Shown here: positions 787 through 4,939 of the stretch, in pieces
How the letters are laid out: each line of letters starts with the position of its first letter
Numbering within the stretch: the stretch's first letter is position 1
DNA from: Halapricum sp. CBA1109
Lineage (GTDB): Archaea > Halobacteriota > Halobacteria > Halobacteriales > Haloarculaceae
Assembly: GCF_009741825.1 (NCBI RefSeq)
Contig: NZ_WPCA01000012.1
Location: 1 to 33,256, forward strand
Direction: 5' to 3'
Length of the DNA stretch: 33,256 bases
Notes under the pieces: generated by a model
Told to the model about the DNA's origin: nothing
The model's input: the letters and a program-made list of their open reading frames with translations, nothing else
Database searches by the model: none
Program-made: the position numbers and the translations under genes

Positions 787-1098
787 ATGAATATGAGCGA
801 CCCATCAAGAGCGGACGCGACCGACCCGGAGTCCGACGAGGCGGTCACGGTGTCGGTCTCGCCCAACGGACAGGCCACGATTCCCAAAGCGTTCCGGGAC
901 AAACTCGGGATCACGTCTCCGGGACGGGTCCAGTTTCGTGAGACGGACGACGGGGAGATCGTCGTCGAGCGTGTGCCCTCCGTCGAGGAGATGCGAGGCT
1001 TCGCCGCGGAGCGTACCGACGCGTCGACGGACAAGCCCGCGAGTCAACTCCTCCGGGAACAGCGCGCCGAGGAGCGAGCGGACCGTGATCAGGCGTGA
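787..1098 (+). CDS. AbrB/MazE-family antitoxin
   Basis: A 103-residue protein. Residues about 20-60 form a SpoVT/AbrB swapped-hairpin domain, recognisable by VSVSPNGQATIPKAFRDKLG followed by a strand-rich stretch ending GEIVVERV. The C-terminal third is charged and probably unfolded until it binds and blocks the toxin. The stop overlaps the toxin's GTG start in a GTGA junction, which is the usual arrangement for an antitoxin-first pair. Such antitoxins normally bind their own promoter. Starts at 787 and 793 are both possible. The pair sits at the edge of an AT-rich accessory patch. Confidence 0.85.
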   Translation: MNMSDPSRADATDPESDEAVTVSVSPNGQATIPKAFRDKLGITSPGRVQFRETDDGEIVVERVPSVEEMRGFAAERTDASTDKPASQLLREQRAEERADRDQA

Positions 1099-1508
1099 CC
1101 GAGCAGGTCGTCTTCGATACCGAGCCGCTGGTCGCGTACGCGGACGACGAACCCGGGAGCGACGTCGTCGCGGCGTATCTGGACGATGTCGTGACCGGCG
1201 AGACGGACGGGCGACTGACACTCGTCAACGCGACCGAGATACGGTATATTCTGGCTCGGAAGTACGACCGGGAGACCGCGGATACGTTTCTGGACTGGCT
1301 CTGGACAATCGGTGTCGACGCGATGGGCATCGATTCGATATGGGACGGTGCCGCCGAGTACGTCATCGACCACAATCCCGCACTCGGTGATTCCTACGCC
1401 CTCGCAGCGGCGGCGACGCTCGACGCCACGCTACTCGTGGGCGGCGATCAGGAGTACAGCGACATCGGTGACGTCACCGTCGAGCGCTTCCGCGACCACG
1501 GCGTTTGA
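1095..1508 (+). CDS. vapC: PIN-domain ribonuclease toxin (VapC type)
   Basis: A 137-residue PIN-domain protein. The expected acidic metal-binding residues are present: Asp8 in FDTEPLVAY, Glu48 in NATEIRYIL, Asp99 in GDSYALAAA and Asp118 in LLVGGDQEY. VapC toxins cleave RNA, often tRNA or rRNA, when freed from the antitoxin. The GTG start lies inside the antitoxin stop (4-base overlap), which fixes the start and implies translational coupling. All four catalytic positions are intact, so it is likely active. The RNA target cannot be inferred. Confidence 0.88.
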   Translation: MTEQVVFDTEPLVAYADDEPGSDVVAAYLDDVVTGETDGRLTLVNATEIRYILARKYDRETADTFLDWLWTIGVDAMGIDSIWDGAAEYVIDHNPALGDSYALAAAATLDATLLVGGDQEYSDIGDVTVERFRDHGV

Positions 1509-2094: not shown

Positions 2095-3315
2095 TTATGG
2101 GAAATCCCTGAAGGGCGCATCCTTTAATTCTTCTTTTCTTTCTTCGCCGACTGTCTCCATAATTATTGATCCACCTCTGGATTCCATATTAAATCCGAAG
2201 TGAATTTCGCCGTCTTCCTCTACAGGATCATCATAATCTACTACTTCATCAACGTAATCAACTTGCATATAGGTGCCCGCCTCATCTTCTACAAAAGCAT
2301 CGGCGAACCTAGCTGACTCTTGAACGAGAGCCTTCGCATCAGGTCCAACAGTGTAAGGATTATCATTGGCATTTTTGAAGTCTAAAATTCTACTTCTCTC
2401 AGCATCTGCGTCCGCAGTGTAAATAATATCAACGTTTCCATCAGTAGGCCAAGGAAGCAAAGCATCATTTCTTCTGTTTATCATTTCGTAACCTTCATTT
2501 CCTCCAATATTACCATCCCAAATAGTTCTTACAAGTTGCTTAAACGCGTCTGTGTCTAGAACAGTTGCAGTCCTATTTGCTGAAACTTCTCTGTCTTCTC
2601 CTGGAGTCCAAGTGTCTTGAATTGTTTCTTCTGCGCCTTCAATCTCCTCCTCGTTTTCGGACAAATACGAAATAAAATCTCCTTCATCATTCTCTTGTTG
2701 TCTATGTCCACCAGGCCTATAGTTTTCTATTTTGACGGCTCCATCGTCTTCTGTTCTGAATACTTGAGTTACTTGTTGTCTTTGTCCTCCTGTGTCGAAG
2801 TGGTATGGGTTGAGGAATACTTGTTCTGTGTTGAGGCCGAGTTGGTTGTGGAGTGCTTGTCTGTATGCTGCGATTCCGTTTCTGGTTTCTACTTGTTTGC
2901 CTGCGTGGCCTGCTGTGTCTTCGAGTAGTTCGCTGGTGACTTCGAGGTTAGAGAGGTCGTGGCCGTCTTGTTCTAGGTCGCTAACGATATCGTCCCAGTT
3001 GTTGGTGATCGTTCTTTTGACAGAATCTGGAACCGAGTTCCTTTCGTGATAGACTGTTTCGAAACTTCGCATCTGGTTTGCTGGATCGTTTCCAGATTCT
3101 GTCTCTGTCGGTGTTTGTTCCGGCGGCTCTTCGGTCGTCGTCTCGGTCGGTTCGCTCGTGGTCGGTTCGGGCGTCGCCGTCTCCGGGGCCGTCGCTGGCT
3201 GGCGAGTGCTCGACGCCGGCGCGTCGGTAGTGCCGTCTTCGCCGCCGCTACTCGTACAGCCAGCCAGTAGTATCGCCCCGCCGAGGCCCGCGACCAGTTC
3301 CCGACGCGTCTGCAT
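2095..3315 (-). CDS. exported lipoprotein with unknown AT-rich C-terminal domain
   Basis: A 406-residue protein. The N-terminus MQTRRELVAGLGGAILLAGC has a twin-arginine motif and a lipobox (LAGC), so it is probably Tat-exported and lipid-anchored. A Thr/Pro/Glu-rich linker covers about residues 25-80. The rest is an unrecognised globular region rich in Asp, Asn and Glu with no membrane segment. Base composition changes inside the gene: the signal and linker (about 3060-3315) are GC-rich like the chromosome, while 2095 to about 3050 is AT-rich. This suggests a foreign domain joined to a native export leader. A TATA-like ACTATACG lies about 27 bases before the ATG. Confidence 0.75.
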   Translation of the reverse strand: MQTRRELVAGLGGAILLAGCTSSGGEDGTTDAPASSTRQPATAPETATPEPTTSEPTETTTEEPPEQTPTETESGNDPANQMRSFETVYHERNSVPDSVKRTITNNWDDIVSDLEQDGHDLSNLEVTSELLEDTAGHAGKQVETRNGIAAYRQALHNQLGLNTEQVFLNPYHFDTGGQRQQVTQVFRTEDDGAVKIENYRPGGHRQQENDEGDFISYLSENEEEIEGAEETIQDTWTPGEDREVSANRTATVLDTDAFKQLVRTIWDGNIGGNEGYEMINRRNDALLPWPTDGNVDIIYTADADAERSRILDFKNANDNPYTVGPDAKALVQESARFADAFVEDEAGTYMQVDYVDEVVDYDDPVEEDGEIHFGFNMESRGGSIIMETVGEERKEELKDAPFRDFP

Positions 3316-3377
3316 ACTCGGGCCTTGTCGAGCAATCGTATAGTTCTACTGCCGCGAAGACACTTTGTTCGGCGTTC

Positions 3378-3603
3378 GTGGTTCCTCTCTTCGGTCGGAA
3401 CCACCTATTCCTCCGCGGGTCGCTTTGCTCCCCGCTCCGGTTCGAGGCTCTTCGCTCCGCTCAGAGCCTCGCTACTCCTCCACGGCTCCCTCCGGTCGCC
3501 GTTCCGGTTCGAGACCCCTCACTTCGTTCGGCGTCTCGCTACTCCTCGCGGCTCCTGTCGTCGCCGCTCGGATTCAGAGGTTCTTCACTGCGTTCAGAAC
3601 CTC
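3378..3603. repeat. array of seven hairpins sharing an 11-base loop
   Basis: Four large hairpins (3378-3404, 3444-3470, 3511-3537, 3577-3603) are each 27 bases: an 8-base stem and an 11-base loop of form TCnCTnCGnTC. They start 66, 67 and 66 bases apart. Three smaller hairpins with 5-base stems lie between them (3415-3435, 3482-3502, 3548-3567) with the same or nearly the same loop. Hairpin centres are therefore about 33 bases apart. Stem sequences differ (GTGGTTCC, GAGGCTCT, GAGACCCC, GAGGTTCT), yet the arms remain complementary, with one mismatch in the third. The array lies one base after the HMG-CoA synthase stop and upstream of the lipoprotein gene; no gene is seen within it. Confidence 0.85.
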
Positions 3604-3604
3604 T

Positions 3605-4939
3605 CTATTCCACGTACGTGTACTTCCGTTCACCCATCCGACCCCAACCGTCGAAGACGAACTCGTCTTCGGGCGTCGTGAACGCATCGACGTCGGTCGT
3701 CTCGTCGTGGTTGTGGACGTCGTGGATCTGCTCGTACTGGTCCCAACTGATGTCGTAGCGCTCGACGAGCTGGTTGTCGACGGACAGTTGGGCAATCTCC
3801 TCCTCCCAGCCGGGCTGGACCGTCTCGGTGTGGATTTCGGCCTGCGCGCCCGACCCGTACGAACAGACCAGCAGTTCGCGGTTGTCGAAGTCGAGGCCGT
3901 TCTCGCGGGCGTGTTTCAGTCCCGCGAGGCGGGCGACGTGGACCGAGCCGGTGTACCAGTTGCCGACCTGCGCGGAGATTTCGAGCGTCGGCTCGATGGC
4001 GCGGCCGTACCACTCCTGATACGTGTCGGTCTCGGTGAGTTTGTCGGTGTACTCCTTGAGGGCGTCGCGGTACGTCTCCTCGTCGTCGAACGCCTCGGGC
4101 CGGGGCTGGCGACCGATCTCCTCGGCCAGTTCCTCCTCAACATCGGTGTTGCGGGCGACGTGACGATAGCCCAGCGCCGCGGCCTTACGTACCATCCCCG
4201 GGAACGGGGTGTGGAACGGCACCAGCGCGAAGTCATCGGGGTGGGTGTCGCGCTGCATTTCGAGGTCCTCTAAGGCCTCGCGCATCCGCATCAGGTAGAC
4301 CTGCATCGAGCGCTTGCCGTCGACGCTCGGGAACTGCTGGTTGGGCTTGAGGAAGTCCGTCTCGTCGGCGCTGCCGAAGCCCTGTTCGGGCTCGATAGTG
4401 ACCACGTCGGGGTCCTCGTCGATGAGCATCGCCACGGCGCCGGCGCCTTGGGTCGCCTCGCCCGAATCACCGCGCTCGTAGAGAGCGGTGTCGGTGGCGA
4501 TGACCAGCGCCGCGCGGTCACGGTTCTTGCCCGCGGCGATCCAGTTGACGGCGTCGTCGACGCTCTGGGTCCCGGAGATGCAGGCGAACTTCCGCTCGCC
4601 CTTGTTGGCGTGGTGGAAGTTCGTGTCGTAGACCTGTTCGAGACACCCGGCGACGTACGTCGAGACGGGTTTCGAGTGGTCGAAGGCGCTCTCGGTCGCC
4701 ACGTCGATGCGGCCGATGTCCTGCGGTTGCAGGTCCCGCCGGTCCATCAGGCGCTTGGCCGCGTTTGCGGCCATCGTGACGATGTCCTCGTAGGCGTCCG
4801 GGAAGGAACTGGCGTGCAGGCCCAGTCCCTTCGTATACTTCGCCGGGTCGTCGTCTTTCTCCTCGGCGAACGTCTCCGCGAGGTCGAGTTTCAGCTTCCC
4901 TGTCCGGAACTCCACGGCGTCGATGCCTACGTCAGTCAT
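3605..4939 (-). CDS. hmgB: hydroxymethylglutaryl-CoA synthase
   Basis: A 444-residue thiolase-fold enzyme that condenses acetyl-CoA with acetoacetyl-CoA to give HMG-CoA for the mevalonate pathway, which archaea need for isoprenoid membrane lipids. The catalytic residues are visible: Glu83 in ATESAFDHSKP, nucleophile Cys120 in FACISGTQSV and His243 in PFHTPFPGM. Length and N-terminus (TDVGIDAVEF) fit haloarchaeal HMG-CoA synthases, supporting the ATG at 4939. It stands alone, divergent from the oxidoreductase gene. Its stop codon is followed after one base by the hairpin array, which would lie in its 3' untranslated region. Confidence 0.96.
   Translation of the reverse strand: MTDVGIDAVEFRTGKLKLDLAETFAEEKDDDPAKYTKGLGLHASSFPDAYEDIVTMAANAAKRLMDRRDLQPQDIGRIDVATESAFDHSKPVSTYVAGCLEQVYDTNFHHANKGERKFACISGTQSVDDAVNWIAAGKNRDRAALVIATDTALYERGDSGEATQGAGAVAMLIDEDPDVVTIEPEQGFGSADETDFLKPNQQFPSVDGKRSMQVYLMRMREALEDLEMQRDTHPDDFALVPFHTPFPGMVRKAAALGYRHVARNTDVEEELAEEIGRQPRPEAFDDEETYRDALKEYTDKLTETDTYQEWYGRAIEPTLEISAQVGNWYTGSVHVARLAGLKHARENGLDFDNRELLVCSYGSGAQAEIHTETVQPGWEEEIAQLSVDNQLVERYDISWDQYEQIHDVHNHDETTDVDAFTTPEDEFVFDGWGRMGERKYTYVE

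Follow-up and report, generated by a model that had tools for sequence, protein, structure and literature searches.

What occupies the DNA directly downstream of the HMG-CoA synthase gene (hmgB) of Halapricum sp. CBA1109, and what might it do there? In the 33,256-nt contig that was analyzed as a whole (hereafter, the window), hmgB runs directly into a tandem array of short hairpins. A preliminary description of the locus had offered three explanations for them: an RNA element in the hmgB 3' end, a protein-binding array, or a terminator cluster.

Array architecture

Seven hairpins were found on the minus strand, with stems of 8-9 bp alternating with stems of 5 bp at a pitch of about 33 nt. The large and small alternation and the constant loop, including one loop of 10 nt, agreed with the preliminary description (Table 1). 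By rising coordinate, the large stems measure 8, 9, 9 (with one G-G mismatch) and 9 bp. The centres of the large hairpins are 66-67 nt apart, and those of adjacent hairpins 32-35 nt.

Each minus-strand hairpin has the form stem-GA-N-C-GNA-G-N'-GA-stem, in which an outer helix is followed by tandem G·A mismatches, then by a covarying N/N' pair and a C-G pair, with a GNA triloop at the tip. A sheared closing pair is possible in the minor ANC and ANA triloops as well. Small hairpins carry an extra GA/GA step outside the 5-bp stem, mostly enclosed by a C-G pair. A K-turn was rejected, as the tandem G-A lacks an adjoining 3-nt bulge. The repeat unit, 59-67 bp long, is a module of two hairpins: a large hairpin, an AACCGGA-like linker, a small hairpin and an ARTAG-like tag. 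In the window, 3.5 copies lie in tandem. The tags ahead of the four large hairpins are AATAG, AGTAG, AGTAG and AATAG. Several copies, at 3510-3538 in the window, at L027:1294-1506 and at L054, share a G-G mismatch in one fixed position of the large stem (ACGCC/GGGGT or GCGCC/GGGGC), which is a heritable subfamily mark.

The hmgB stop TAG (3605-3607) is itself part of the 5' tag of the element, AATAG (3605-3609). The array had been placed one base past the stop; it does adjoin the stop, with no spacer at all, the coding sequence ending at 3605 and the first stem starting at 3604. Downstream of the array, the putative lipoprotein had no match in a Pfam search. Elsewhere in the window, the MazE-like antitoxin and the PIN-domain protein (787-1508) are probably a toxin-antitoxin pair.

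Table 1. Positions of the array elements and of neighboring genes in the window.
Feature	Position	Strand	Details
MazE-like antitoxin	787-1098		
PIN-domain protein	1095-1508		
Putative lipoprotein gene, downstream of the array	2095-3315	minus	406 aa; LLAGC lipobox
Large hairpin 4 (unpaired half unit)	3378-3404	minus	8-bp stem; loop GACCGAAGAGA; GGAATAG in front; weak R1 match at 3351-3409 (25 bits)
Small hairpin 3	3415-3435	minus	5-bp stem GCGGG/CCCGC; loop GAGCAAAGCGA
Large hairpin 3	3443-3471	minus	9-bp stem; loop GAGCGGAGCGA; GGAGTAG in front
Small hairpin 2	3482-3502	minus	5-bp stem ACGGC/GCCGT; loop GACCGGAGGGA
Large hairpin 2	3510-3538	minus	9-bp stem with one G-G mismatch; loop GAACGAAGTGA; GGAGTAG in front
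Small hairpin 1	3548-3567	minus	5-bp stem GCGGC/GCCGC; 10-nt loop GACGACAGGA; GA/GA flanks
Large hairpin 1	3576-3604	minus	9-bp stem; loop GAACGCAGTGA
Three full modules	3543-3609, 3477-3543, 3410-3476	minus	R1 covariance model scores of 67.4, 78.1 and 84.4 bits, two of the three being R1 training sequences
hmgB, HMG-CoA synthase	3605-4939	minus	444 aa; Pfam PF01154 and PF08540; ORF

Distribution of the family

Blastn searches with the array hit the MAG that contains the window at 27 places and gave matches in 23 of the 30 relatives. The preliminary description had guessed that similar hairpins are common in haloarchaeal intergenic DNA and had proposed a covariance-model search, and a dispersed family was indeed recovered. 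The model, R1 (68 positions and 19 pairs, built from 11 sequences), gave 20-75 matches in each of six genus genomes at E ≤ 0.01 and also matched three further haloarchaeal samples; at E ≤ 0.1 it had no match in 348 kb from non-haloarchaeal members of the phylum. The exact small-hairpin pattern was present in 20 of 295 phylum genomes, all within the window's own order, and a reversed-pattern control gave zero matches in the same 295. In genome G004, 43 hairpins were counted that have the core and a stem of 5 bp or more; permuted or mirrored cores gave 4-14, and a random sequence matched in dinucleotides gave 6. Within its phylum, the element is restricted to Halobacteria.

Among relatives, modules are patchy in presence, mostly intergenic, and 59 to ~70 bp long. 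The suggestion that so regular a run may be new was not upheld, as tandem runs occur elsewhere; at G001:C1:483807-484341 (L230:4808-5342), nine units spaced by 59 bp lie in tandem, eight of them with an identical model score, which suggests a recent expansion. In samples of G233 (for example L131:5625-5689 and L138:12691-12890), divergent gene pairs enclose variant modules of the form CGTGGCC...GGCCACG followed by TTA-AG, at a distance of 30-56 nt from a start codon; these are possibly a second subfamily adjoining promoters.

Five element-rich loci had no match in Rfam release 15 at E ≤ 0.05, and the best Rfam match of the window array (E 0.065) fell far under the gathering score. Blastn against plasmids and phages gave no real match, and five IMG/VR contigs contained the exact small hairpin alone, without a full module. 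No published description of the family was found in a literature search of open-licence papers. The repeat family is previously uncatalogued. At locus L093 (18514-18598, 18677-18712 and 18922-18949), two duplicated pieces of the 3' end of a tRNA-Leu gene come after that gene, with GA-capped hairpins in between. A GA cap in tRNA variable arms was rejected, since the two matches that had suggested it lie next to duplicated tRNA 3' fragments rather than within tRNAs.

Folding strand and conservation of structure

Folded as RNA, the minus strand of the array reached -115.8 kcal/mol versus -80.9 ± 4.6 for shuffles (z -7.5, 0/200), and the plus-strand fold was weaker against its shuffles (z -4.0). 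Single departures from pairing in the stems, scored on the GA strand, were G-T or T-G in 17 cases versus A-C in 3, and the GA strand is therefore the folding strand. The hairpins had been read on the plus strand in the preliminary description; they are real, and the informative strand is the minus strand, that of the hmgB transcript.

The inner loop pair was Watson-Crick in 91 of 96 loops (39.6 expected, with a maximum of 55 in 2000 permutations) and was G-C or A-T in all 46 exact matches to the small-hairpin pattern. When sites were anchored on the loop core only, all five flanking pairs were Watson-Crick at 146 of 1089 sites versus 3.5 expected, and four of the five at 75 sites versus 28 expected. 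None of these three analyses depends on choosing paired stems. Decayed copies are therefore few. In an alignment of 123 R1 matches, which was fitted to the R1 model, two-sided substitutions were present at 19 of 19 modelled pairs, and 95.8% of cells were paired versus 28-42% with slid partners. Covariation of the kind expected of a conserved structured RNA was thus found across copies. Selection on the structure of the hairpins, as already claimed in the preliminary description, is strongly supported by these comparisons, and the conserved feature of the family is the predicted folded shape rather than the sequence.

The hmgB locus in relatives and placement at stop codons

In G003 and G005, modules of the same layout lie directly 3' of the hmgB stop with different stems, the G003 locus being identical in sequence to Halapricum hydrolyticum locus L021. 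A module in G004, again with different stems, is placed after a duplicated hmgB 3' end. The C-terminus encoded by hmgB is unchanged in G001 and G002, and the TAG stop that precedes the array is found in these array-less relatives as well; the array is therefore not essential there. Its presence in some hmgB orthologues and absence in others makes gain or loss of the array possible. UAG readthrough or recoding was rejected, as unit periods of 59, 62, 63, 66 and 67 break the frame and the last hmgB residue is the same in orthologues with and without the array.

In three species, part of the hmgB 3' end recurs as a duplicate behind the intact gene (L097/L102 in G004, L101 in G001 and G017:C1:4079795-4079851). 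The G004 duplicate measures 127 bp (97% identity); that of G001 measures 46 bp (100%) and reaches a few nt beyond the stop; that of G017 comprises 19 residues. A short hairpin/T-run segment separates the copies in G004 and G001. These duplications look like repeated insertion or single-crossover events.

Across the family, 59 of 101 clusters follow a same-strand gene, in a set where many loci were picked by similarity to the window and gene calls came from a home-made scorer of ORFs, which overlooked one or more genes of the window. Among these 59 sense clusters, 27 start between -8 and +4 nt from the stop of the upstream gene, 20 have the TAG stop exactly within the tag (a count favored by the inclusion of the tag in R1), and in a further 8 the stop falls within the first hairpin. 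Array starts coincide with stops, usually TAG, far beyond chance. Tandem gaps numbered 38 sense versus 10 antisense, but only ~9:6 in four genome samples not picked by window similarity. Eighteen clusters sit between genes that diverge, which means that some copies cannot be 3' UTRs.

Proposed function and alternatives

We give an even chance to the reading that the array is a dispersed haloarchaeal two-hairpin element acting as a structured mRNA 3' UTR, its hairpins serving as roadblocks at the RNA level. Of the three options first offered, the evidence speaks most for an RNA element at the 3' end of hmgB, given that the sense strand is the one that folds and that the array begins right at the stop. 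The hmgB mRNA would carry the array as its 3' UTR from the UAG stop onward, and the serial hairpins would shield the mRNA 3' end from RNase R-type 3'-5' decay, perhaps also slowing the polymerase or the terminating ribosome. Copies may have spread as REP/BIME-like repeats and grown by tandem duplication.

With no exosome subunits, haloarchaea rely on RNase R (PMC2841640), so that hairpins at the 3' end are a plausible point of control. Haloferax RNase R has been reported to degrade structured RNA (PMC2841640), which weakens the idea of protection and makes it uncertain. The GCGNAGC heptamer is an ultrastable, nuclease-resistant mini-hairpin of DNA, not RNA (PMC4686876), and a role in single-stranded DNA thus remains alive. 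A broader proposal, which we regard as speculative and unlikely, is that the arrays make up an undescribed clade-wide system in which tandem GA-capped hairpins at stops, selected copy by copy, would be the target of a dedicated protein that binds RNA or ssDNA, and would set mRNA stability or termination without an exosome.

The repeats might instead be selfish and REP-like, with GA-strand hairpins as single-stranded DNA substrates of an HUH/Y1-type transposase or another ssDNA enzyme, insertion beside TAG at gene ends and any RNA effect incidental. The ARTAG tag at unit starts, its coincidence with TAG stops, the patchy mixture of tandem and dispersed copies and the match of the loops to ultrastable DNA mini-hairpins would all follow, and in bacteria GTAG REPs likewise lie at gene 3' ends and coincide with TAG stops (PMC3733652). 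However, stems vary within a genome, even between neighbors, and decayed copies are few, unlike recent identical copies; the Y1 domain (PF01797) is absent from the complete genome G004, which has the most copies, and from the window's own MAG (79% complete), although it is present in some relatives; and archaeal Y1 proteins belong only to IS200 subclass 1.1, not to TnpA-REP (PMC6006769). We consider this account somewhat unlikely.

A cluster of intrinsic transcription terminators, also among the options first offered, is decidedly unlikely. The hairpins are placed after stop codons, haloarchaeal 3' ends can follow hairpins (PMC7237163), and a few copies are followed by T-runs (for example L009 and L014). 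However, T-runs are no commoner after arrays than after ordinary stops: T4 occurred within 60 nt downstream of 4 of 59 sense arrays versus 149 of 673 ordinary stops, and T5 within 120 nt of 7 of 59 versus 48 of 422. The window array has no T-run behind it.

Templated quasi-palindrome correction is a known route to perfect inverted repeats. By keeping complementarity through mutation, without selection, it would account for stems that are variable yet perfect, but it would also erase the tandem G-A mismatches, which are invariant between two perfect helices, and it leaves the conservation of loop, linker and tag unexplained; we consider it very improbable. An array of duplex-DNA protein-binding sites phased on one helix face, suggested by the ~33-bp pitch in the window, is hardly credible: the pitch holds here, but helical phasing at three turns of B-DNA was rejected because unit length varies from 59 to ~70 bp among relatives. 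Also against such an array, stem sequence varies freely while pairing is kept, which is unexpected for duplex recognition, and the strands are unequal (G-T over A-C).

Relation to known elements

Returning to the proposed 3' UTR element, its closest known counterpart is the GTAG REP/BIME of bacteria, which is associated with RAYT/TnpA-REP. Common to both are short palindromes with 5-9 bp stems in many intergenic copies, tandem or grouped near gene 3' ends, and, less clearly, a GTAG-like tag at the hairpin foot, which in GTAG REPs often supplies the TAG stop of the neighboring ORF (PMC3733652). That study lists GTAG families in bacterial phyla only (PMC3733652). Unlike in GTAG REP/BIME, the haloarchaeal stems are not constant within a genome, every large-stem pair varying with compensation; the large and small hairpins are paired in direct, not inverted, order; and the tag is degenerate (AGTAG in 12, GGTAG in 2 and AGCAG in 4 of 59 modules, with others), particularly outside the genus. 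Of the traits of the class, many intergenic copies of 20-40 nt palindromes (20-75 model matches per genus genome) and a 3'-end position with a TAG stop (20/59) are present; a near-constant stem and loop within a genome is lacking, as is an associated RAYT transposase in the window's own MAG and in G004. The element works like REP/BIME, but is not filed as one.

Hairpins at haloarchaeal transcript ends are also described for Haloferax volcanii (PMC7237163). There, the structures were clustered from the 100 nt preceding each 3' end, and one hairpin reduced read-through in a reporter; the present family shows no T-run enrichment. With d(GCGNAGC)-type DNA mini-hairpins (PMC4686876), the element shares the apical heptamer N-C-GNA-G-N', most often GCGNAGC. 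Those are known as isolated oligonucleotides or aptamer parts, not as a dispersed haloarchaeal repeat, whereas the haloarchaeal heptamer sits on tandem G-A pairs and a variable stem.

Implications

That this structured repeat family is real is well supported by the sequence comparisons; its function is inferred. Bacteria are known to have hairpin repeats dispersed at gene ends, and whether these act as selfish DNA, mRNA stabilizer or translation brake is still argued. The haloarchaeal copies diverge in sequence yet stay folded, which suggests selection on individual copies, a level of selection seldom so clear in bacterial REPs. The coincidence of the tag with TAG stops bears on the mode of repeat insertion. 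The family yields a ready covariance model and a genus in which hmgB has or lacks the array, and its exosome-less setting would allow the effect of 3' hairpins on mRNA decay to be tested directly.
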